Of a stretch of 30,441 bases of DNA, positions 20,509 through 30,441 are shown in pieces. The position numbers and the translations under genes were made by a program. The notes under the pieces are model-generated. The model did no database searches, was not told the origin of the DNA, and worked only from the letters and a program-made list of their open reading frames with translations. This DNA comes from a virus. Position 1 is the stretch's first letter, and every line of letters starts with the position of its first letter. Location of the stretch: the IMG/VR virus record IMGVR_UViG_3300031801_001120, positions 1 to 30,441 of that record. One strand, 5' to 3'.

Positions 20509-21195
20509 ATGGGGGATAATGATTTAGAATATACCTTTGATAATGGAGATCATTATGTTGGTGAGTGGAAGAATGGTAAGATGCATGGCCAAGGAATCTT
20601 TACCCATAACGATGGAAACAAATATGTTGGTGAATTCAAGGATGGTAAAAAGAACGGACAAGGCACCTTAACCCTTACTGAAGGTTTCGGGTTTGAAGGA
20701 GACAAATACGTTGGTGAATGGAAAGATGACAAACCTCATGGCTATGGCACTGAAATTATTAGTCCTAATGGTAGGTTTGCAGGGAACAAATACGTTGGTG
20801 AGTGGAAGAATGGTAAACAACATGGCCACGGCACTGCGACTTCTCCCGAAGGACAAAAATACGTTGGTGAATACAGGGATGGTAAATGTCATGGTAAAGG
20901 TACACATACCTATACCAATGGAAATAAATATATCGGCGATTTCAAGGAAGGTAAAATGCAAGGCCAAGGCGTTCATATCTTTGCTGATGGGGAAAAGTAT
21001 GAAGGTGAATTTAAGGATGATAAATTTAGTGGACAAGGTACATATACATTAATTCTTTCAGAGGATTCCAAGAAAAAATATGTTGGCCAATGGAAGGATA
21101 ACAAAGCACACGGACAGGGTATTACTTATGGCGTTGGTGGAAAAGTGTATCAAGAAGGAATATTTGAAAACGGCCACTTTTTGAATGGGGTTTAG
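20509..21195 (+). CDS. MORN-repeat protein 1, 228 residues
   Basis: The protein is almost entirely MORN repeats. After a leader, DLEYTFDNGD, there are eight good units of the form KYVGEWKNGKxHGxGTxT-x-x-G plus one degenerate unit at the end (EGIFENGHFLNG). Most units are 23 residues; units two, three and seven carry small insertions (for example GFGFEGD). MORN repeats fold as stacked beta-hairpins and in eukaryotes often lie at membranes or act as dimerisation scaffolds. There is no signal peptide, transmembrane helix or added enzyme domain. The ATG directly follows the fibre stop, with AGGAG at 20496-20500, so it is co-translated with the fibre. The role is unknown; a virion appendage, a fibre chaperone or a membrane-binding protein are possible. 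Confidence 0.85.
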   Translation: MGDNDLEYTFDNGDHYVGEWKNGKMHGQGIFTHNDGNKYVGEFKDGKKNGQGTLTLTEGFGFEGDKYVGEWKDDKPHGYGTEIISPNGRFAGNKYVGEWKNGKQHGHGTATSPEGQKYVGEYRDGKCHGKGTHTYTNGNKYIGDFKEGKMQGQGVHIFADGEKYEGEFKDDKFSGQGTYTLILSEDSKKKYVGQWKDNKAHGQGITYGVGGKVYQEGIFENGHFLNGV

Positions 21196-21204
21196 ATACA
21201 AAAA

Positions 21205-22356
21205 ATGGATAATAATGAATTAGAATATACTTGGGACGAAGGGTTTCGTGCTGGAGAAAAATATGTAGGGGAATGGAAGGATTACAAACCCCACGGACAT
21301 GGCACCTATACCTTTGCCGATGGAGATGAATATGTCGGTCAATGGAAAGAGGGCAATCAACACGGACAAGGCACCGTAACCAATACTAATAGAGACAAAT
21401 ATGTAGGTCAATGGAAGAATGGTAAATACCACGGCCAAGGTATTGAAACCTTTGCTGATGGGGGTAAGTACGTTGGTGAATTCAAGAACGGAATATATCA
21501 TGGATTAGGCACCGTGACCTACGCCAATGGGAACAAATATGTTGGCCATTGGAAGGATGGTAAAGAAGACGGATTCGGCACCGTGACCTATCCTACTGGA
21601 AGAAAATATGTCGGTGAACTTACAGACGGTGATAGACATGGCCGAGGCACTCTTACCTATCCAGATGGAAACATATACATTGGCGATTTCAAGGAAGGTA
21701 AAATGCATGGTCAAGGCACTTTTACCCATCCCAATGGATCGAAATACGAGGGCGAATGGAAGTCTGGCCAACCCAACGGACATGGTATTGAAACCTTTGC
21801 TGATGGGGGTAAACATATCGGTGGATACAAGGATAATCAAAAGCATGGACAAGGAATTTTTACCTATGCTGATGGGTCGAAATATGATGGTGAGTGGAAG
21901 AATGGTAAATGGCATGGGAAAGGTGTCTTTACTAAGCCCACTGGAAGAAAATATGTTGGTCAATATATAAACGGTAAACCTGATAGACAAGGTACTTATA
22001 CCTTTGACGATGGAAGAGTGATGGAAGGTATATGGGAGGATAAAGAATTGATCTCTCACAAGAATGGCAAACCTAACGGAATAGGTACTTTTACCTTTGC
22101 TAATGGGGTTAAATATATCGGTGAATGGAAGGATGCCCTATTTCATGGATACGGCACCCTTATTTTTGGTAATGGAGACAAATACGTCGGTGAATTTAAA
22201 AATGGTCAATCACATGGGGAAGGTATTGGTTATGGTGCTGATGGTAAAATACGCCAATCGGGCCTGTGGAAGAACGGTCAATTTGATTCGTTATTGGAGT
22301 TCACCCATACAGAAAGGGTGGATGCAACTGGTCACGTAAATGCTAGTGTGATATAA
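21205..22356 (+). CDS. MORN-repeat protein 2, 383 residues
   Basis: The leader NELEYTWDEGFRAGEKYVGE is followed by about thirteen good MORN units and two degenerate ones. The unit near residues 272-300 carries an insertion (EDKELISHKNGKPNG). The last unit (IRQSGLWKNGQFDS) is degenerate, and a non-repeat tail of about 25 residues (FTHTERVDATGHVNAS) ends the protein. It lies nine bases after MORN protein 1 with only a weak ribosome binding site (a G-rich stretch at 21187-21190), so coupling to the first gene is likely. The His/Lys/Trp-rich repeat faces could bind acidic lipids or glycans, as proposed for other MORN proteins; nothing in the sequence proves this. No enzyme domain is present. Confidence 0.85.
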   Translation: MDNNELEYTWDEGFRAGEKYVGEWKDYKPHGHGTYTFADGDEYVGQWKEGNQHGQGTVTNTNRDKYVGQWKNGKYHGQGIETFADGGKYVGEFKNGIYHGLGTVTYANGNKYVGHWKDGKEDGFGTVTYPTGRKYVGELTDGDRHGRGTLTYPDGNIYIGDFKEGKMHGQGTFTHPNGSKYEGEWKSGQPNGHGIETFADGGKHIGGYKDNQKHGQGIFTYADGSKYDGEWKNGKWHGKGVFTKPTGRKYVGQYINGKPDRQGTYTFDDGRVMEGIWEDKELISHKNGKPNGIGTFTFANGVKYIGEWKDALFHGYGTLIFGNGDKYVGEFKNGQSHGEGIGYGADGKIRQSGLWKNGQFDSLLEFTHTERVDATGHVNASVI

Positions 22357-22359
22357 ATA
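22352..22359 (+). promoter_or_regulatory. Late promoter box TATAAATA before MORN protein 3
   Basis: A perfect TATAAATA overlaps the TAA stop of MORN protein 2 (22354-22356) and is 17 bases ahead of the MORN protein 3 ATG. It suggests late expression, in step with virion genes. Confidence 0.75.
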
Positions 22360-22376
22360 GAAAGAATGGAAAAAAA

Positions 22377-23312
22377 ATGTCTGATAACGAATTAGAATAT
22401 ACTTGGGATGAAGGGCCACGTGCCGGAGAAAAATACGTTGGAGAATGGAAGAATTACAAATTCCACGGTAAGGGCAAATATTATTACATGAATGGGGCTA
22501 CATATGAAGGTCAGTGGAAGGATGGAGAATACCACGGAAAAGGCCACTTTATCTATCCTGATGACGTTCCAGATGAGCTCGAAGAATGGGGAGCACCTGT
22601 AGCGAGTATTGATCCTGACATACCTAAGTCTCACGACGAACTGCGGGCTGACCACGGGTGGGCCCACCCTCCTGGCGGTTGCAGAATGGAAAATGGTGCG
22701 TATTATGGGGAAAGTTACGAAGGTGAATACAAGAATGGTAAAGCACACGGAAAGGGTACATATATTTCTAACAATGGGATGAAATATGTTGGTGAATTTC
22801 AGAACGGTTTAAAGCACGGAAAAGGTACGTTGGACTTACCTAATGGAAACAAATACGTTGGCGAATTCAAGAATGAATGGAGACACGGACAAGGCATTCA
22901 AACTGATGCTGATGGAAGAGTGAAAGAAGGGATGTTTGAAAAGGATACTCAACATGGTCAAGGCATCACAACCTTTGCTAACGGAGACACATACGAAGGG
23001 GAATTCAGAATGGGTGCAAAGTGGGGTCATGGCACTTATACTGTTTTTAATGGTGGCACATATGTTGGTGAATGGAAAGAAGGTATCCAACATGGCCAGG
23101 GTGTTGAAATTTGGGTAAATTCAACTGGTAAGAAAGATAAATATGAAGGTGAATTTAAGAACGGCAAACCAAATGGTCAAGGAACATATACCTACAGTGA
23201 TGGGAAAAAACATGAAGGCGAATGGAAGGACGGAGATTATATCCAAATGGGATCTATAGTAATAGATGAAGGTGAACTTCGTTCAAAAAGAGAAGAGGAA
23301 GGTAAAAAATAA
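22377..23312 (+). CDS. MORN-repeat protein 3 with inserted segment, 311 residues
   Basis: The leader NELEYTWDEGPRAGEKYVGE is nearly identical to that of protein 2. Two MORN units follow, then a 50-residue non-repeat insertion (about 61-111) that is acidic, Pro-rich and has HGWAHPPGGC. Seven to eight further units follow (SYEGEYKNGKAHGKGTY onward). The C-terminus (IVIDEGELRSKREEEGKK) is charged and helical. The His and Cys residues of the insertion are the only candidates for a metal site in the three proteins. The start is an ATG with a weak GGA-rich site; a late box lies upstream. Its TAA overlaps the next start (TAATG), tying it to a virion-like gene. The function is unknown. Confidence 0.85.
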   Translation: MSDNELEYTWDEGPRAGEKYVGEWKNYKFHGKGKYYYMNGATYEGQWKDGEYHGKGHFIYPDDVPDELEEWGAPVASIDPDIPKSHDELRADHGWAHPPGGCRMENGAYYGESYEGEYKNGKAHGKGTYISNNGMKYVGEFQNGLKHGKGTLDLPNGNKYVGEFKNEWRHGQGIQTDADGRVKEGMFEKDTQHGQGITTFANGDTYEGEFRMGAKWGHGTYTVFNGGTYVGEWKEGIQHGQGVEIWVNSTGKKDKYEGEFKNGKPNGQGTYTYSDGKKHEGEWKDGDYIQMGSIVIDEGELRSKREEEGKK

Positions 23313-24259
23313 TGGCTTCTAGAAATTTACTATACGTTGATGACAATAATGATCTTGCGGAAATGTCTAGTGCAGAAATGGTAGAGATACAGAAAAGAAT
23401 GATCTATGCTTATAGTGTTACTCCATCAGCGGTCATAACACAGGTTAGCGATAGTGGTGCAAATATAGCTTCTATGGATGATACCAGACAAAAAGCTGGT
23501 GCAACTTCACAGTCTGCCTCGGCCTTTGTTGCAGAAGGTACAACTGCTGAACCTGGCACTGTTACTGTAACATATGATAAAATAAATTTAGCATATACAA
23601 CAAGTGATGTTGGTCACACTACTGACACTGGAACAACCTTTCCTGTATATTATGACGGTAGTGGGAACATTCAATCTTGTTCTCTTACTGATTTGAAGGA
23701 TACTCTTATTTACGATTGCATTGATCTTCTTGTTTCTGGTACAGAGAGTGCAACTACAGCAGGAACATATACAATAACTGATTCAGCAACTGCTGCTTCA
23801 AATTATACTAATGTTTCAACCACAGCAGTTTTCACAGATACACGAGCAGATACAGATGAATATTCAGCTGCGGGCATTCCAGAAACATTAGATCAACCGA
23901 CTACTATCACGAATTATTATCTTCATGAGAGAGATGGAGTAGCTAATACTCCCAGTAGGATGCCGGTAGTTGTTAACGCCAGTAATGATTTGGCGGAAAT
24001 GTCTAATTCTACTATAGATTCTGTTTTAGGGGATTGGTTAAGATATACAGCTGCTAATGATGGTGATGGATATAAAATTGTATATACAGTAGCAACTTCT
24101 GGTGGTAACACTAGAGGAACTGCTATGGTAGACACTAGATTAGATGGTGCCGGTAATTATCAGACATTGCAGTCTGGAGATGATTATCGATCTCAGGAAT
24201 TTCCAAATGGATCATCTGGGACGGTTACTACGTATAATTTACGTATAAATAAAGGATAG
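23312..24259 (+). CDS. Virion-like protein with internal duplication, 315 residues
   Basis: This is a Thr/Ser/Ala/Asp-rich protein with short beta-like stretches. The N-terminal motif LLYVDDNNDLAEMSSAEM (about 5-22) recurs as VVVNASNDLAEMSNSTI at about 219-235, each followed by a Tyr-rich helix (MIYAYSVT; WLRYTAAN). So the protein seems to be a fused or duplicated two-domain form. The ending, YRSQEFPNGSSGTVTTYNLR, is a beta strand. Proteins of this composition are common among marine myovirus tail appendages, so a structural role is inferred. The ATG overlaps the MORN protein 3 stop. Its last codons hold the late box of the next gene. Confidence 0.6.
   Translation: MASRNLLYVDDNNDLAEMSSAEMVEIQKRMIYAYSVTPSAVITQVSDSGANIASMDDTRQKAGATSQSASAFVAEGTTAEPGTVTVTYDKINLAYTTSDVGHTTDTGTTFPVYYDGSGNIQSCSLTDLKDTLIYDCIDLLVSGTESATTAGTYTITDSATAASNYTNVSTTAVFTDTRADTDEYSAAGIPETLDQPTTITNYYLHERDGVANTPSRMPVVVNASNDLAEMSNSTIDSVLGDWLRYTAANDGDGYKIVYTVATSGGNTRGTAMVDTRLDGAGNYQTLQSGDDYRSQEFPNGSSGTVTTYNLRINKG
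24244..24251 (+). promoter_or_regulatory. Late promoter box TATAAATA before the 168-residue gene
   Basis: A perfect TATAAATA lies in the last codons of the 315-residue gene, 17 bases ahead of the ATG at 24269. AGGAG (24258-24262) lies in between. Confidence 0.75.
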
Positions 24260-24268
24260 GAGTAAGAT

Positions 24269-24775
24269 ATGGCTGTTGGTCAGGGTGAACCTTTTGCATT
24301 TTGTGGTAGAATAGTAGAGGCATATTATTCTAGCCCGGAATTAGATACTGTTGCTATTATGTGGAGCGATGGTGAAAAGAATCGTGAATACTACGTTGTG
24401 GTTGATGAGGAAGACGATCAATTTCAGGCTCTCTTAAAAGAGTGGTCTTATGAAAGTCTTGATGAGTGTACAAGAACTAGAAATGAACAACATCGACAAG
24501 AATTTAGAGATGCTTTCCACCGATATGCTACAGAACGTAATATGTATGGTCATAGTGATGGAGAGTCATTTGAAGAACGTCAAGCTTCTTTAGACATTAT
24601 TTTTGATTTTGATCCAGAAGAGCCAGAACATAAAGAACAACTTTTTAAACTTAAACTTAAAATGTTTGAACAGGATGCGGTTAAAAATAGTAAAGCACGG
24701 ACAAAGAAAACAGCTATTCGAAAAGCTGAAACCCCCGTTGAAGCTCTTGCCGCATATGCATCTTTTATAAAATAG
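24269..24775 (+). CDS. Conserved-looking unknown protein, 168 residues
   Basis: The N-terminal half is beta-rich (FAFCGRIVEAYYSSPELDTV, AIMWSDGEKNREYYVVVDEE), and a charged helical part follows (QALLKEWSYESLDECTRTRN, EQHRQEFRDAFHRYATERN). The C-terminus is helical with a Lys/Arg-rich segment (NSKARTKKTAIRKAETPVEA). There is no signal peptide, membrane segment or recognised catalytic motif. It has a late box and strong AGGAG of its own, which suggests high late expression, as for a structural or packaging-linked protein. The function is unknown. It is the last late-type gene before the accessory operon. Confidence 0.75.
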   Translation: MAVGQGEPFAFCGRIVEAYYSSPELDTVAIMWSDGEKNREYYVVVDEEDDQFQALLKEWSYESLDECTRTRNEQHRQEFRDAFHRYATERNMYGHSDGESFEERQASLDIIFDFDPEEPEHKEQLFKLKLKMFEQDAVKNSKARTKKTAIRKAETPVEALAAYASFIK

Positions 24776-24817: not shown

Positions 24818-26176
24818 ATGAATATATTAGGTATATCTGAAGGATTTCATGACGCAGCAATTTGTTTGATTCGAAATAGTACAAAAATTCATTATGCTTC
24901 TTCTAGTGAAAGATATAGTGGTATAAAAGGTGATAAGTGGGTTCATGCAGACCAATTTCCCAGAAGTCCTAGTAATCAAGCTAACGTAGTTGCATATTAC
25001 GAAAAACCTTTCCGTAAAAATTTAAGACGATTATATGCTGGTCAGAAGTGGCAAACTCCACGACTCAAGTATGATTGGTGTTACGGTCATCATGAATCCC
25101 ATGCAGCTGCTGGATATTATACCGCACCATTTGACGATTGTAATGTTTTGGTTATAGATGCTATTGGAGAGTGGGATACTATTTCTATATGGGAAGGGAA
25201 AAAAACTCATTTAAAAAAGATCAAGTCTTGGAAATATCCATACTCTCTTGGTCTTCTCTATTCTGCAATCACACAAAGTATTGGACTGAAACCCAATGAG
25301 GATGAATATATCACTATGGGTATGTCGGCATTTGGTGAACCAATATACGATCTAAGTGAATTGTTATGGGAAAATAATCATAGAGGAGCAAGAGAAATAT
25401 GGAAAGATAAATGGCAGGGGTATCATATAAAGGAAGAAGACCTTGCTGCTTCTGTGCAAGCTCTATATGAGAAGGAATTTCTAAAACTTGTGGAGATGTG
25501 TCCCAAGAAAAACTTAGTTATTATGGGAGGGTGTGCTTTAAACTGTGTTGCAAACTCCAAGATAAAAGGAAAGAATATTTGGATTATGCCTGCTCCTGGC
25601 GATGCTGGTAGTTCTTTAGGTGCGGCCGCATTAGTATTAAAAGAAAAATTGGAATGGAAACATCCTTATCTTGGGTATAATATATTAAAAAAAATTAATA
25701 CAAATTCAGTTGTTAAAGAGCTTCTGAAAAATAAAGTTGCTGGTGTTGCAAATGGAAAAGCAGAGTTTGGCCCAAGGGCGTTGGGAAACCGTTCTCTTCT
25801 TGGTGATCCTCGATATGATATAAAAGATACTGTGAATGAGATTAAACAGAGGCAGAAATTTCGTCCCTTTGCTCCAGCAATATTATCGGAATTTGCAGAC
25901 GAATATTTCGACGGCCCAATGAATGAGTATATGCAGTTTGTTGCAAAGGCAAAACACGATTTTAAATCTGTTACTCATGTTGATGGTACAGCAAGAGTAC
26001 AGCTGGTAAAGAAGAATTGTGGTTCTATTATTAGGTCTATCTTGGAAGAATGGTTTGAACAAACTGGATGCCCTATGTTATTGAACACATCTCTTAATAT
26101 TAAAGGTAAACCTATAGTAAATACGTGGGACGATGCAGAGGAATTTTCAAAGAAATATAATGTCAATGTTTTCTAA
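24818..26176 (+). CDS. Carbamoyltransferase (NodU/CmcH/TobZ family)
   Basis: This is a 452-residue protein with both family domains. The Kae1-like N-terminal part opens with NILGISEGFHDAAICLI. It has the metal-binding HHESHAAAGYY at 91-101, LVIDAIGEWD at 111-120, YSAITQ with a GLKPNEDEY-TMGMSAFGE run, GGCALNCVAN at 237-246 and the GDAGSSLGAA loop at 261-270. The YrdC-like C-terminal part has FGPRALGNRSLLGDPR at 317-332, RPFAPAIL and CPMLLNTSLNIKGKPIV at 418-434. Such enzymes make carbamoyl-adenylate from carbamoyl phosphate and ATP, then carbamoylate a hydroxyl, usually of a sugar or antibiotic. It is shorter than TobZ (about 570 residues), missing linker and end pieces but no key motif. It is cytosolic. 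The substrate is unknown; sugar-related neighbours suggest a glycan. GGAG lies five bases before the ATG. Confidence 0.9.
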   Translation: MNILGISEGFHDAAICLIRNSTKIHYASSSERYSGIKGDKWVHADQFPRSPSNQANVVAYYEKPFRKNLRRLYAGQKWQTPRLKYDWCYGHHESHAAAGYYTAPFDDCNVLVIDAIGEWDTISIWEGKKTHLKKIKSWKYPYSLGLLYSAITQSIGLKPNEDEYITMGMSAFGEPIYDLSELLWENNHRGAREIWKDKWQGYHIKEEDLAASVQALYEKEFLKLVEMCPKKNLVIMGGCALNCVANSKIKGKNIWIMPAPGDAGSSLGAAALVLKEKLEWKHPYLGYNILKKINTNSVVKELLKNKVAGVANGKAEFGPRALGNRSLLGDPRYDIKDTVNEIKQRQKFRPFAPAILSEFADEYFDGPMNEYMQFVAKAKHDFKSVTHVDGTARVQLVKKNCGSIIRSILEEWFEQTGCPMLLNTSLNIKGKPIVNTWDDAEEFSKKYNVNVF

Positions 26177-26963
26177 ACGTAAAAAATTAATCATAGGAGG
26201 GTGTTCGTATACTGATAATTATGCAAAGAAACACAAGATGCCCGAATTTCCTATATGGGGAGAATTACTAGCAGATAAGTTAGATATGGATTTGATTAAT
26301 CTTGCAAGGTGTGGTTTTGGTAATCAAGCAATATACACTACTATATTAGAAAGAACATTAAAAGAGAAAAATGTTGGACTTATAGTAGCTATGTGGTCTG
26401 AAGTTCAGAGATTAAACATCTACAAAAATACACAACTCAACCCCAAATGGCAACATTATAATTGGCAATGTTTTCATCCAGACAGAATTGTTTTGGACGC
26501 AGAATGGCATGATCAATTTTATAAACCCCCATCAAAAAATCCTAAAAAATCTGGACTACAATGGGATGTTAGTAATGTATATAGAGACTATGATATAGAT
26601 TGTATTAAGGGAGCTACTATTTCTTCTTTAAGTTTTATGTATTCTTTTCAGAATTTTTGTGAGGCAAATGATATACCGTATTTACAGGTACAAGGTTGTC
26701 AACCATTAATGGGTAAGTCAGAACCTACACAGAATATTCAGTATAAAGAATTTTGTAATCTTATTATTAATAGCCCCTATGTGGATAAAATTAAAGATAC
26801 ATTTTTAGGGTGGCCTATCGATCCTCGTATTGGTGGTTATAGTATTGATTCTAAATTAGAAGATGAACATAGATTTGCTCCAGAAGATACACATCCAAAT
26901 GAAATTGGACATAAATTTATAAGTGAGGTTTTGTATAATGCAATTAATAGCAAGTGGTTGTAG
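26160..26963 (+). CDS. SGNH-type hydrolase-like protein 1
   Basis: Read from ATG 26160 it has 267 residues; the frame is open further upstream (to 26133), but a start there would cut deeper into the carbamoyltransferase gene. The start gives MSMFSKRKKLIIGGCSYTDN, a strand followed by the nucleophile Ser16 in GGCS (block I). Block II is RCGFGNQ (about 50-56). In place of block III's GxND there is VAMWSEVQRL. The end has DTHPNEIGH (block V; Asp243, His245). FQNFCEAN and LGWPIDPRIGGYSIDSKL are shared with paralogue 3. SGNH enzymes hydrolyse or transfer acyl or acetyl esters; the substrate is unknown, with glycan O-acetyl groups a possibility. There is no signal peptide, so it acts in the cytosol or on virion parts. 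It overlaps the carbamoyltransferase stop by 17 bases. Confidence 0.75.
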   Translation: MSMFSKRKKLIIGGCSYTDNYAKKHKMPEFPIWGELLADKLDMDLINLARCGFGNQAIYTTILERTLKEKNVGLIVAMWSEVQRLNIYKNTQLNPKWQHYNWQCFHPDRIVLDAEWHDQFYKPPSKNPKKSGLQWDVSNVYRDYDIDCIKGATISSLSFMYSFQNFCEANDIPYLQVQGCQPLMGKSEPTQNIQYKEFCNLIINSPYVDKIKDTFLGWPIDPRIGGYSIDSKLEDEHRFAPEDTHPNEIGHKFISEVLYNAINSKWL

Positions 26964-27666
26964 TTTTACAGAAAATGTGCTTGTGGAAGATCCGTGGCCT
27001 AATCGTTTAGCAAATAAGTTAGGAGCGAAACTTACAAATTTAGGAGCAGGAGGAAGAGGGAACGAGTATATTTTTAATATGGCATTTGATAACTTAGATA
27101 AAGCAGATTTAATGGTTGTTATGTGGTCAAGTTTTGATAGGTGGGATTTTGTTAATAATACGTTTGAGATTCCGTATCTATTGGCAGATGGTGGTACTAT
27201 GCCACGAAGGAATGAACTTATAGATAATACTACTGGAAAACCAGCAAATTTGTATTTAGCAGAAAATAAATTTGTAACAGCTTCTAGGGCGTTAGTAAAT
27301 GCAAGATGTGTTGATCCTCGGCATCAGATTAAAAAGAGCTTGAGATGGATGGTTGCATTACAAGATATATGTAAACAAAAAGAGGTGCCTCTTATAATGA
27401 GTATGGGGTTTTTACATTGCACAAAACTTGAGGACACAGAGGTTGCAAAGACTTTTACAAACTTTTCAAGATTTTTTGATTTAGAAGGAACAATAGGTTG
27501 GCCCTATAGTTATCTTTTAGATGGTTTTACACTACATGATAAAATGAGAGAACATGGGACTGATATGTGTATATCAGAATTTGACGAACACCCTAATGAA
27601 TTAGGGTGTGAATTAATTAGTGAGGTTTACTATGATGAATATAAAAAGATGTATCCTAAAGGTTAG
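26938..27666 (+). CDS. SGNH-type hydrolase-like protein 2
   Basis: This has 242 residues from ATG 26938; an in-frame GTG at 26923 is better read as part of the ribosome binding site (GTGAGG). Block I is LIASGCSFTEN with Ser9, block II is GAGGRGNEYIF (about 36-46), and block III is replaced by VVMWSSFDRWDF. Block V is DEHPNELGC (Asp216, His218), where the final His of its paralogues is a Cys. IGWPYSYLLDGFTLHDK aligns with the GWP...GG motif of paralogues 1 and 3. The catalytic residues appear intact, so I expect esterase or acyltransferase chemistry on an unknown substrate. It overlaps paralogue 1 by 26 bases, and the codons for SEV near the end of paralogue 1 supply its Shine-Dalgarno sequence. 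It is more like paralogue 3 in its N-terminal half. Confidence 0.75.
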   Translation: MQLIASGCSFTENVLVEDPWPNRLANKLGAKLTNLGAGGRGNEYIFNMAFDNLDKADLMVVMWSSFDRWDFVNNTFEIPYLLADGGTMPRRNELIDNTTGKPANLYLAENKFVTASRALVNARCVDPRHQIKKSLRWMVALQDICKQKEVPLIMSMGFLHCTKLEDTEVAKTFTNFSRFFDLEGTIGWPYSYLLDGFTLHDKMREHGTDMCISEFDEHPNELGCELISEVYYDEYKKMYPKG

Positions 27667-27817
27667 ATTATTTTTGTCAACTTTGTATATGCGGCCGCAT
27701 AAAGAAGAAAAGGGTTTCATATATGAATTCAACGATGAAGAGTTTAAAGAACTTCCAACAGAAGAACAAGCTAAAGAAGTTCAAAAAAATTGGAATAAAC
27801 ATATGAGAGAAAAGTGA
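27632..27817 (+). CDS. Small acidic-tailed protein between SGNH genes
   Basis: From ATG 27632 (or the adjacent ATG 27635) it has about 61 residues. The ribosome binding site GTGAGG (27620-27625) lies in the end of SGNH gene 2, at the same place as in the previous junction. The N-terminal 20 residues (MNIKRCILKVRLFLSTLYM) are hydrophobic and basic. The rest (KGFIYEFNDEEFKELPTEEQ, AKEVQKNWNKHMREK) is charged and helical. The N-terminal part could be a membrane anchor, or the true start may be ATG 27689, giving a 42-residue soluble protein without that segment but also without a clear ribosome binding site. The function is unknown. Its TGA overlaps the GTG start of SGNH gene 3. Confidence 0.5.
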   Translation: MMNIKRCILKVRLFLSTLYMRPHKEEKGFIYEFNDEEFKELPTEEQAKEVQKNWNKHMREK

Positions 27818-28539
27818 AAAATCAAATTTTAATGGTTGGAGATAGTTGGACAGCCGGAACTAGAATACAAGCTCTTGGATTTAATACCTGGCCTATCTGG
27901 CCGGAGTTAATTGCCAAGAAGTTGAATATGACTTTTAAAAATTATGCTGATGGTGGCAGAGGAAACGAGTTCATATACAATCAAGTAATAGATAACTATG
28001 ATGGTGAAGAATTAATTATCGTTTTATGGAGTCATTATGATCGTTGGGATTTTGCTCATTATTCTTTATCATGTAATCCCTACCGTGGAAAGGATGCATA
28101 TGATGGCGATGATCCGACTTCTAGAGAAAAAAAAGAAAAGATATTTGATGTTTTGATGGAGACAGAATTATTAAATGCAAAATATAATTTTAATAAAAGT
28201 ATCAGATGGATCCATGCTTTTCAAAATTTTTGTGAAGCCAATAAAATAAAGTATATGCAAGCACAAGCCTTTCATCCAGCATGGGAGTTAGATCAATGGA
28301 ATGGTATTAATCATTTTGTTGATAGCCCCTTATTATATTACATAGATGAAACTCATTTTTTAGGTTGGCCCCTGTTTAAACAAATTGGTGGTTTTACTAT
28401 GTCAGATAAATTAGATGAAGTTGATCCAGATCAATCTAAACTTAGAGTCAACTTTATGTATGATCCACATCCAAATGAAGAAGGTCATAAGTATATAACA
28501 GAACTATTTTATAAGTTCTATAGAGGTTTATATGATTGA
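27814..28539 (+). CDS. SGNH/GDSL hydrolase-like protein 3
   Basis: This has 241 residues from a GTG start that overlaps the previous stop (GTGA). The ATG at 27832 is in frame but would remove the first beta strand (KNQILMVGDSW), so GTG is preferred. Block I is the classic GDSWTAG (Ser11), block II is ADGGRGNEFIYN (about 45-56), and the third block is VLWSHYDRWDF as in paralogue 2. The C-terminus has DPHPNEEGH (Asp217, His219). IRWIHAFQNFCEANKIKYMQ and FLGWPLFKQIGGFTMSDKL match paralogue 1. The catalytic Ser, Asp and His of an SGNH enzyme are present; block III lacks the usual GxND Asn. The substrate is unknown. The following glycosyltransferase starts within its last codons. Confidence 0.8.
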   Translation: MKNQILMVGDSWTAGTRIQALGFNTWPIWPELIAKKLNMTFKNYADGGRGNEFIYNQVIDNYDGEELIIVLWSHYDRWDFAHYSLSCNPYRGKDAYDGDDPTSREKKEKIFDVLMETELLNAKYNFNKSIRWIHAFQNFCEANKIKYMQAQAFHPAWELDQWNGINHFVDSPLLYYIDETHFLGWPLFKQIGGFTMSDKLDEVDPDQSKLRVNFMYDPHPNEEGHKYITELFYKFYRGLYD

Positions 28540-29278
28540 AAATACTATATTATGTGTGAGATGGGGTGACAAATATGATCACACTTATGTAGAAAATTTA
28601 AAGAAACAGTGTGAGAATAATTGTTCAGTACCATTTAACTTCTATTGTCTAACAGATAATCCAACACAATCTTACGACATTCAACTTCCTACAACATGGG
28701 ACAAATACTATTTGTCTGATAGAAATTTCTTTTGGGCATATCGTAAGTGTTATATGTTTTGTATAGATGAAGAACCTGATAAGAACTTTTGGAAAATTGA
28801 GGGCGATAAGTTTCTGTTCCTAGACCTTGACGTTATTATTCATCAAGATTTAAAATATTTCTTTGACCTTTCTATGGATAAACCATATATTGTAAGAGGA
28901 TGGTGGAATAATATTGATGTTGTTAAACGTAATTTTTCAAAACATAAATCAACTCCATTAAACTCTTCTGTGATTCGATGGAACCGTGGCCAATTAAAAA
29001 AAATATGGAAAGAGATTGAAAAGAATGCTGAGATTATTTTCTACACATATCCGAGCTTAGATAATTATCTTAATCATCATTGGTACAATCTGTGGAAAGA
29101 GGATGAAGGATTTTTTAGAGGATTTCCACAGGGAGATACATATTCTTGGTTTAAAGGGAACATATATCCAGATGATATGGAACGTAGAAAAGTGAGAAAG
29201 GATCATAAAATTTGTTTGTTTAACAATAGTTCCTATGGAGAGGGTATGAACGATAAAGAGATCGAAGATTTATGGTAG
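28532..29278 (+). CDS. DxD glycosyltransferase-like protein
   Basis: This is a 248-residue protein. The N-terminal strand-helix unit (ILCVRWGDKYDHTYVENLKK) and VPFNFYCLTDN fit the nucleotide-sugar fold of GT-A enzymes. FLFLDLDVIIHQDLK holds the metal-binding DLD at 98-100. RGWWNNI, NSSVIRWNRGQLKKIW and a late FRGFPQGDTYSWFKG with HKICLFNN are typical later parts of this family, which occurs in several marine phages. It lacks a signal peptide or transmembrane helix, so it would act in the cytosol. It probably adds a sugar to an unknown acceptor such as a glycan precursor or virion protein. It is coupled on both sides: its ATG lies within the end of SGNH gene 3 (AGAGG at 28522-28526) and its stop overlaps the methyltransferase start. 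Confidence 0.75.
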   Translation: MIENTILCVRWGDKYDHTYVENLKKQCENNCSVPFNFYCLTDNPTQSYDIQLPTTWDKYYLSDRNFFWAYRKCYMFCIDEEPDKNFWKIEGDKFLFLDLDVIIHQDLKYFFDLSMDKPYIVRGWWNNIDVVKRNFSKHKSTPLNSSVIRWNRGQLKKIWKEIEKNAEIIFYTYPSLDNYLNHHWYNLWKEDEGFFRGFPQGDTYSWFKGNIYPDDMERRKVRKDHKICLFNNSSYGEGMNDKEIEDLW

Positions 29279-29946
29279 ATGGAATAAATTATACGCCTGA
29301 GGTTGCTAACGATTGGAAACAAACTGCGGCAGATGTAACTAAAGATTATCCACATCAGTTTAGAAGAACTTTAGACGCAACAACAGCCTCACAACTGCAA
29401 AGTAAGTTGTGGTTAATCAATACTATATTGGATTTAAAAATTAAACCTAAAAAAGTTGCCCTTATAGGAGGGTGGTATGCAAGTTATATTGTAGAATTGT
29501 TAATATCTGAAGTTGGTGTGGAGTTTGTTCATAATTATGAGATAGATAACGACACAAAAAATATTAGTTACAAATATAATAAGAGATATAAAGACGGTGA
29601 TAAGTATGCATGTTCTATCAGAGATATTATGTTTAAGTCTGTTTATAAACCTTTAGATTCAGAACTGAAGTTAGGCCCACCGCACCCAAACTGTCAATTT
29701 GATATGGTAATTAATTGTTCATGTGAACATATGTTTCCCATGATTAGGTTTCATGATCTAAATAAAAGAGATATAGATCCAGTGTATGTTTTACAATCTA
29801 CTGATGAAGAAATGTATGACGATCATATTAACTGTGTTGGTTCCCCCAAAGAATTAGCAGAACAGAGTAGTATTGTAAATTTAATGTATTCTGGTTCAAA
29901 AATTTTGGATAATGGAATGAACAGATTCATGGTAATAGGTAAATGA
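29272..29946 (+). CDS. SAM-dependent methyltransferase-like protein
   Basis: This is a 224-residue protein. VALIGGWYASYIVELL (62-77) fits motif I of class I methyltransferases. NYEIDNDT (88-95) has the acidic residue expected to bind the SAM ribose. DMVINCSCEHMFPMI (144-158) takes the place of motif IV. VYVLQSTDEE and RFMVIGK form later strands. The motif I glycine pattern (IGGWYA rather than GxGxG) is not the strict consensus, so function is inferred from the overall fold pattern. No DNA target domain is seen, so a small molecule, sugar or protein acceptor is as likely as DNA. It overlaps the glycosyltransferase stop by seven bases, and its TGA overlaps the next ATG (ATGA). Confidence 0.6.
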   Translation: MVDGINYTPEVANDWKQTAADVTKDYPHQFRRTLDATTASQLQSKLWLINTILDLKIKPKKVALIGGWYASYIVELLISEVGVEFVHNYEIDNDTKNISYKYNKRYKDGDKYACSIRDIMFKSVYKPLDSELKLGPPHPNCQFDMVINCSCEHMFPMIRFHDLNKRDIDPVYVLQSTDEEMYDDHINCVGSPKELAEQSSIVNLMYSGSKILDNGMNRFMVIGK

Positions 29947-30441
29947 CAATTATCGAGTGGTGCAGATATCATGATGTATGGTATCTACAAATGGATTTAG
30001 AAATACCCGAAGTATGTATAAAAGAAGCCCAAACTGTTTATGATGAAGGTTTCTTTGTCGATCATAGATATGGAACTGGTGATGGTTGGCGTTCTGCTGC
30101 TATTCATAGTTTTGTTCATAAAAATGCAAAAGATACCAGCATGGGGTGGCATCATACAAAAAATCCTAATAGTTATGACCTTCGAGAAGAAGATGTTACA
30201 TGGGGATGGACGGAAGTTGCAGAACTAGCTCCTGAGACTAAACGATGGTTGGAGGATTTCCCTCACACTGAATATAGACGATTGAGGTTTATGTTATTGG
30301 AGCCTGGAGGAAGTATCGAACCTCATAATGATTCTAATGCTCCTAGAGATAAGAGAGGTGCAAGAAGGAATATAGCATCTGCTATTAACCTTGCTTTCTA
30401 TCAACCTAAGAATTGTTATCTTCGAAGAAGTGATAGTAAAG
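29943..30441 (+). CDS. Aspartyl/asparaginyl beta-hydroxylase-like oxygenase (partial)
   Basis: The frame is open from ATG 29943 to the window end, 166 residues, without a stop. RRLRFMLLEPGGSIEPHNDS (112-131) gives the HxD metal pair His128 and Asp130 of a 2-oxoglutarate/Fe(II) cupin oxygenase. INLAFYQPKNCYLRRS (149-164) matches the strand after it in aspartyl/asparaginyl beta-hydroxylases. The second His and the 2-oxoglutarate-binding Arg should lie downstream of the window. The N-terminal 110 residues (WCRYHDVWYLQ, GDGWRSAAIHSF, GWHHTKNPNSYDL) are unfamiliar and aromatic-rich. Such enzymes hydroxylate Asp, Asn or other side chains, and the family is common in marine phages. It is coupled to the methyltransferase by ATGA. 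The substrate is unknown. Confidence 0.75.
   Translation, partial: MTIIEWCRYHDVWYLQMDLEIPEVCIKEAQTVYDEGFFVDHRYGTGDGWRSAAIHSFVHKNAKDTSMGWHHTKNPNSYDLREEDVTWGWTEVAELAPETKRWLEDFPHTEYRRLRFMLLEPGGSIEPHNDSNAPRDKRGARRNIASAINLAFYQPKNCYLRRSDSK

Follow-up and report, generated by a model that had tools for sequence, protein, structure and literature searches.

The O-carbamoyltransferase (CMT) family, which includes TobZ, GdmN, NovN and NodU, passes the carbamoyl group of carbamoyl phosphate, via a carbamoyl-adenylate, to a hydroxyl. The stretch of DNA analyzed here (hereafter the window) is the whole of IMG/VR virus record IMGVR_UViG_3300031801_001120, a linear contig of 30,441 bases, and near its 3′ end it encodes, within a run of eight overlapping genes, a CMT that resembles these four in having both domains and that aligns to the decarbamoylnovobiocin CMT and GdmN chains. 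In contrast to them, the window enzyme and its close relatives form a separate clade, are mostly ∼435–500 aa long (∼540–620 aa in most others), and are paired with an SGNH-fold enzyme and a short tail peptide. The SGNH partners of bacterial members of this clade are full members of the family DUF6071 (PF19547), whereas the first SGNH protein of the window, SGNH1, falls under its cut-off.

The crocagin cluster joins the same kinds of enzyme to a precursor that is short and basic and contains Ile-Tyr in the core. The available text of its description lists a 2-oxoglutarate (2OG) dioxygenase (CgnC), a leader-removing hydrolase of SGNH fold (CgnD), a methyltransferase (CgnL) and a carbamoyltransferase (CgnI); related clusters include glycosyltransferases, and the precursor, 21 aa long, has a basic leader and an Ile-Tyr-Trp core (PMC10070186). 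No sequence kinship was detected, however, between CgnD and the SGNH proteins considered here. Cultured phages with close versions of the unit were not found; the nearest for SGNH and for g23312, a protein encoded upstream of the eight genes, is Pelagibacter phage Mosig EXVC030M, which has an SGNH protein (29% identical to SGNH1), a CMT, a methyltransferase and the g23312 protein in one stretch, but whose CMT lies outside the clade and in which neither a micropeptide nor a match to the window family of the hydroxylase AspH was found. In cyanophage S-SSM7, as in the window island, the region from tail fibre to gp13 encodes CMTs and 2OG oxygenases, but again its CMT is outside the clade, and no SGNH protein was detected by profile. 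Carbamoyltransferases and 2OG oxygenases are reported from cyanophage genomes in the available text of one paper (PMC3037559), and that of another describes flexible marine-phage islands that include tail-fibre genes (PMC3909814). A phage-borne carbamoyltransferase of 5-hydroxymethylcytosine (5hmC) in DNA belongs to the same superfamily, but is distant and differs at two key residues.

In the clade of the window CMT, the enzyme is linked to SGNH genes, and the small open reading frame (ORF) beside them belongs, judged by its sequence, to a conserved and unannotated peptide family that is either free or fused to an SGNH C-terminus. The set appears to be undescribed biochemistry that is common to marine phages and soil bacteria, and we tentatively read it as one unit held together by a docking tail. 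An earlier note on the window had described a single decoration cassette of eight enzyme genes, an interpretation that is, as a whole, partly supported. The run of eight consecutive overlapping ORFs on the + strand at 24818–30441 is real and no chance arrangement, as relatives keep its gene order; the proposed carbamoyl-, glycosyl- and methyltransferase, hydroxylase and three SGNH genes hold up, to differing degrees, by Pfam, alignments, folds and profiles. Only seven of the eight are enzyme genes, the small ORF at 27635–27817 having been overlooked as a member of the peptide family. The run and the two genes to its left are as follows.

24818–26176, + strand: CMT, an O-carbamoyltransferase of 452 aa (Pfam PF02543 and PF16861, over cut-off).
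26160–26963, + strand (ORF from 26133 possible): SGNH1, an SGNH-fold enzyme and distant DUF6071 relative (predicted fold; DUF6071 match below cut-off).
26938–27666, + strand (ORF from 26923 possible): SGNH2, an SGNH-fold enzyme (SGNH profile, 202 bits).
27635–27817, + strand (ORF from 27620 possible): micropeptide, a small ORF with a basic helix and a GFIYEF motif (peptide-family profile).
27814–28539, + strand: SGNH3, an SGNH-fold enzyme with a GTG start (SGNH profile, 241 bits; GDSL Pfam match 8e-5, just below cut-off).
28532–29278, + strand: GT, a GT-A-like, GT8-like glycosyltransferase with a DxD motif (invariant D98/D100; Glyco_transf_8 matches in relatives).
29272–29946, + strand: MT, a methyltransferase-like Rossmann protein (weak profile matches; follows GT in relatives).
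29943–30441, + strand: AspH, an Asp/Asn/Arg hydroxylase-like 2OG-Fe(II) enzyme, cut at the contig end (PF05118 below cut-off).
24269–24775, + strand: g24269, the left edge of the insertion slot (GT lies directly 3′ of it in loci without an insert).
23312–24259, + strand: g23312, a protein adjoining fibre genes (48.9% identity to a protein of Pelagibacter phage Mosig).

A scan of viral contigs with the window CMT returned 191 relatives, the best 80 of which (60–77% identical to the window copy) were kept and, with the window itself, make up 81 phage CMT loci. An SGNH gene starts between −120 and +150 nt from the CMT end in 69 of the 81 and lies within 3 kb in six further loci; the contig ends in two. 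For the 67 distinct CMT sequences the corresponding counts are 57 (immediate), 5 (within 3 kb), 2 (beyond the contig end) and 3 (no SGNH gene). Most CMT relatives that have no GT-MT-AspH genes also have an SGNH gene 3′ of CMT, and a CMT match is present in 140 phage records. Linkage starting from SGNH was assessed within whole records, and 14 of 16 SGNH genes in nine records with the cassette sit inside it. A reading of these genes as miscellaneous auxiliary genes that a hypervariable region has gathered and that do not act jointly would suit the variability of the island and the similar clusters in other marine T4-like phages that appear in the available text of two reports (PMC3909814, PMC3037559); order and pairing are nevertheless kept in both of the modules described below, and the CMT-SGNH-tail set is kept across phages and several bacterial phyla. 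Because of these linkage counts we consider it very unlikely.

The pairing extends to bacteria. The CMT alignment was used to scan one genome per species, which gave 80 loci (bacterial and phage loci are both referred to by L numbers), 25 in a close group and 55 others; L162 (a short fragment, 44% identity) is grouped with the 55, and one organism contributes both contigs L139 and L140. An SGNH gene occurred within ∼225 nt of CMT in 13 of the 25 close-group loci and in none of the 55 others (Fisher test, 1.7e-8), and anywhere in the locus, by SGNH profile, in 17/25 vs. 0/55. In Actinomycetota, Oxalobacteraceae and Magnetococcales, CMTs of the clade adjoin genes of the SGNH-type family DUF6071, and five of six bacterial partners scanned were DUF6071 over the Pfam cut-off (L106, L103, L097, L100 and L096; not L092). 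This family is rare, being found, for example, in 4 of 398 Pseudomonadota and 1 of 396 Actinomycetota, the latter the starting genome. A search that began from DUF6071 yielded eight further genomes, six of them with a CMT, 42–45% identical to the window enzyme, within 3.5 kb; the other two, L332 and L333 (only 10 kb long), had none within that distance, and L111 is the same contig as G1131. Gene order in the module varies between taxa, which argues for function and not for co-transfer alone.

A CMT tree, built by a quick method, placed 41 rows in one clade (support 100, branch 0.82), with the CMT of Streptomyces parvus nested among those of phages. The CMT of the contig concerned (L089/L334) shares 65% identity with the marine phage enzyme and is flanked by large ORFs, of which the one scanned is a nonribosomal peptide synthetase (NRPS); DUF6071 lies at a distance of ∼12 kb, and directly 3′ of CMT is a tail peptide that ends in KKDSYIYD. 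The tree and three residue positions also bear on the idea that the window CMT modifies 5hmC in DNA, as a phage CMT from a sewage virome does in vitro according to the available text of its report (PMC8670742). TobZ W408, G421 and R423, positions at which that text links non-canonical residues to DNA modification, were mapped onto the window CMT by motif. The second and third, G323 and R325 in the window, are canonical in 41 of 41 phage or close rows, but are C and T in the DNA enzyme as given in that text; the first, V310, is non-Trp in both. The 5hmC enzyme falls outside the CMT clade on a very long branch, and the same text reports glycosyltransferase neighbors for CMTs of unmodified contigs (PMC8670742). 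Disfavored by residues and tree, DNA carbamoylation was set aside as highly improbable.

In some bacterial loci the surroundings point to sugars. L338 has a WbsX glycosyltransferase, a formyltransferase and a DegT aminotransferase, and L106 has GDP-mannose dehydratase/epimerase. A sugar context is also seen in L066 and L083, with nucleotide-sugar dehydrogenase and GT17. Three further loci from bacterial genome bins (L087, L088 and L090, from Gammaproteobacteria, Parcubacteria and Rhodobacteraceae) are phage-like contigs.

The AlphaFold2 (AF2) model of SGNH1, with a predicted local distance difference test score of 91, matches TesA at Z 15.3, and its fold resembles those of thioesterase I and of carbohydrate esterases. 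The window protein scores E 1.3e-4 and 22.2 bits against DUF6071, under the 27-bit cut-off, and SGNH3, used singly to scan viral contigs, found no relative. Across the SGNH alignment Ser is kept in 118/118 sequences, Asp in 110/115 and His in 112/115. The region that we take to be block III, assigned by eye from the known SGNH blocks, reads Trp-Ser-x3-Arg (WSxxxR), with Arg in 118 of 120; the usual Asn is absent from SGNH1–3 of the window and from their relatives, and the near-invariant Arg possibly reflects a changed oxyanion hole. Since the catalytic residues are kept while SGNH identity mostly falls to 20–40% (compared with 60–77% for CMT), these enzymes look active and substrate-variable.

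The peptide family was delimited with a profile hidden Markov model (HMM), which gave 122 matches at E ≤ 0.01, all on the + strand, among the 55,470 ORFs of loci L001–L314 and the window. There are 57 distinct phage micropeptide genes, 56 of them within 300 nt of SGNH or CMT, and 60 of the 81 phage CMT loci carry a peptide (six read by eye, ending in FIY plus up to a few residues). A basic, helix-like stretch of 20–30 residues with spaced hydrophobics leads into [F/Y/W]-I-Y, after which acidic residues are usual. Its Tyr is present in 62 of 62 anchored distinct phage peptides and is followed by 0 to 37 residues; the anchor itself requires a Tyr, but 56 of the 62 peptides had been selected by the profile. 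The window peptide is of the long type, in which a conserved extension follows GFIYEF. Ten micropeptides, the window copy among them, had no match in NCBIfam. Pooled dN/dS (nonsynonymous to synonymous rate ratio) of the micropeptide is 0.65, only mildly below 1, pN is below pS in 461 of 551 pairs (which are not independent), and Shine-Dalgarno-like sites precede 27/57 micropeptide genes vs. 157/681 random ATGs. Locus L071 has two SGNH-tail pairs. At L188 7887–7991 (the same as L290), a lone micropeptide, possibly a remnant, occupies the slot between g24269 and GT.

Bacterial peptides are likewise basic, end in DP[FYH][ILM]Y plus at most one or two residues, and mostly adjoin CMT or SGNH. Three systematic searches found a tail in 17 of the 25 close loci and in none of the 55 others: the phage HMM gave L087, L088 and L090, a sequence pattern L091, L093, L096, L097, L098, L099, L101 (4 kb from CMT), L103 and L106, and a long-ORF pattern L092, L095, L100, L104 and L111; the tails of L089 and L107 were added by eye, from close loci only. 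In several bacterial lineages the tail is fused to the SGNH C-terminus: DUF6071 proteins themselves end in the motif in L100, L104, L111, L322, L324 and L325, and both SGNH proteins of L107 end in FIYE. Among 7,542 long ORFs scanned, the only other motif matches, in L092, L095 and L323, run in frame into the free tail. The AF2 model of the fused SGNH protein of L100 has a disordered linker, a basic helix at 275–289 and a free, low-confidence end, so that the tail is not folded back on its own SGNH domain in the model.

A basic stretch of this kind could instead be an amphipathic membrane anchor that brings CMT and SGNH to the inner membrane, so that a lipid-linked host glycan would be altered there during infection. 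The 20–30 helix-like residues with spaced hydrophobics and the surface-glycan-like context in Oxalobacteraceae agree with this, but the conserved aromatic-Ile-Tyr end is left unexplained, and inspection of the islands, with no search aimed at such genes, revealed neither a membrane flippase nor a lipid carrier. We consider an anchor quite unlikely.

The peptide may also be the substrate, that is, the precursor of a ribosomally synthesized and post-translationally modified peptide (RiPP), with CMT carbamoylating at or near the invariant Tyr or the terminus and SGNH cleaving or releasing the product; in phages GT, MT, AspH and the radical SAM enzymes may act on it too. In favor of this, the peptide is short and basic, has a single conserved motif at its end and is encoded next to its would-be enzymes, and in borosins the precursor is fused to an enzyme, as the tail is to SGNH here. 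The crocagin pathway, as far as the available text goes, combines the same kinds of enzyme with a short basic precursor with an Ile-Tyr core (PMC10070186), and CgnD is among the structural matches of SGNH1 (8a2n, Z 11.8). It is, however, only one of many SGNH folds at similar Z, and no CgnD chain is among the PDB matches of the SGNH profile, so that kinship with CgnD was rejected. The motif also occurs fused to SGNH, and in phages 0–37 residues follow the Tyr; a recognition element would fit this no less well. The phage GT-MT-AspH part occurs without the peptide. A substrate role is, in our view, rather doubtful; the proposition that CMT and SGNH act on or through a ribosomal FIY-tail peptide, with phages carrying a RiPP-like pathway whose product is on the virion or in the host, we regard as unlikely.

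How the unit is placed in phage genomes was examined in loci retrieved mostly via CMT, GT (the best 80 of 309 relatives kept) or AspH (79 relatives). Related marine T4-like phages share a frame, in the order g23312, g24269, slot, GT, MT, (AspH) and onward genes. Among 60 distinct loci having g24269 and GT, the slot holds a CMT in 26, all 26 with SGNH (a proportion that, given the retrieval, is not a natural frequency), SGNH without CMT in two, and no recognized gene in 32; 29 of these 32 slots are gaps of 10–138 nt, and L209, L213 and L217 have 609–1470 nt. L188, with its lone micropeptide, is one of the 32. MT lies 3′ of GT throughout L167–L241 except in L219 and L239, whose contigs end within ∼110 nt of GT; AspH is absent from some loci, e.g., L210–L211. 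The run thus divides into an optional insert (CMT through SGNH3) and the first three genes of a fixed part, GT-MT-AspH. The single joint cassette of the earlier note was therefore rejected: GT-MT(-AspH) stands without CMT-SGNH in the 32 loci, and CMT-SGNH without GT-MT-AspH in many others. The note had named scattered and independent genes in relatives as a refutation; the genes are not scattered, but form two separable units. In L232 and L236 CMT and micropeptide lie 3′ of AspH and not 5′ of GT, the cassette having used another site in the same island.

Our preferred explanation, held tentatively, is that CMT, SGNH and FIY tail form one unit, with the tail for docking, plugged into a late-gene tailoring island. 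The fixed part (GT, MT, AspH, radical SAM enzymes and a second GT-like protein) would attach and modify a group on something that the phage makes, a virion protein or glycan being likeliest, ahead of the head-neck genes, and the mobile three-part unit would be inserted into it. CMT would transfer a carbamoyl group to a hydroxyl of a sugar or similar substrate, and SGNH, a predicted Ser-His-Asp hydrolase or transferase that varies between phages, would add or remove an acyl group on that substrate and so set which position gets carbamoylated; a partner on the same substrate would explain both the strict CMT-SGNH pairing and the variable SGNH sequence. The FIY tail would bring SGNH and CMT together: a tail that is a free peptide in some genomes and joined to SGNH in others, with a flexible free end, fits docking or tethering. 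A virion or host-surface glycan is a plausible target, and virion modification is our guess from gene position.

Several observations weigh against the docking unit. SGNH is missing in 4 of the 81 phage CMT loci and a recognized tail in 21; the lone micropeptide of L188 stands in a locus that shows no CMT or SGNH; in the window peptide the motif lies inside the sequence and not at the C-terminus; and 0 of 117 complete phage SGNH proteins carry it fused. L089 lies beside NRPS genes and L331 beside radical SAM and PP-binding genes, and the substrate therefore need not be a sugar. A peptide-substrate role fits much of the same evidence, and trees and patterns accommodate docking and substrate roles alike.

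In the open-access PMC literature we found neither a description of a unit of CMT, SGNH/DUF6071 and peptide nor a paper containing the term DUF6071; one candidate, PMC11796379, is in its available text unrelated to the unit. Marine-phage carbamoyltransferases have been listed as auxiliary genes with no explained role, and the enzymes of one CMT clade, which ranges from Actinomycetota to marine phages, are now tied to a constant partner and to an overlooked peptide, free or fused, that has a sharp sequence signature. This offers a testable system in ordinary bacteria (e.g., Collimonas relatives and Streptomyces), a route to naming DUF6071, and a handle on the products of hypervariable regions beside phage fibres.

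The remaining genes of the run were assigned with differing certainty. The identity of CMT is certain (PF16861, 4e-48 and 163.6 bits vs. a cut-off of 27; PF02543, 6e-37 and 128.4 bits vs. 24), and the other seven ORFs are singly under Pfam curated cut-offs. The GT and MT functions are putative, drawn from weak sequence matches: window GT has no Glyco_transf_8 (PF01501) match over cut-off, 5 of 23 relatives match (best E 0.003), and the DxD (D98/D100) is invariant in the alignment, while MT matches spermidine synthase chains at a profile E of 0.01 and Methyltransf_11 in 1 of 20 members; neither profile had a decisive match among PDB chains. AspH reaches 20.8 bits against PF05118 (cut-off 22.6), and the window copy ends before the second Fe-binding His, with complete relatives keeping H128-x-D130…H185. 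Likelier ATG starts at 26160 or 26166, 26938 and 27635 cut the largest overlaps to 11–32 nt; SGNH3 overlaps the micropeptide by 4 nt. No long hydrophobic segment was found in the proteins of the run (maximum 19-residue Kyte-Doolittle mean 1.37; no signal-peptide predictor was used).

On the 3′ side the window contig stops before the radical SAM and second GT-like genes. In related loci the frame continues past AspH with radical SAM genes in some, a 430–520 aa protein, a second GT-like gene and gp13; radical SAM/SPASM, 430–520 aa protein and second GT-like genes are at L009 15070–18588, L019 15482–17475 and L020 14052–15083. The further genes that the earlier note had suggested seeking past 30441 are thus present in relatives, as radical SAM/SPASM genes and a second GT-like gene, then gp13/gp14. 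In L019 the last named island gene is the head-tail adaptor Ad2, followed by head closure Hc2. The placement of the run near fibre and baseplate genes in the earlier note is borne out on the 5′ side, where the window holds T4-like baseplate genes (gp25-, gp6- and other wedge-like, by PHROGs), giant ORFs and a fibre-like gene. Between the fibre-like gene and the eight-gene run are three MORN-repeat ORFs, then g23312 and g24269. The MORN ORFs (window 20509–23312) had no match in 85 other loci compared and may have been inserted into this contig recently; the bacterial locus L101 has one MORN-like ORF, too.

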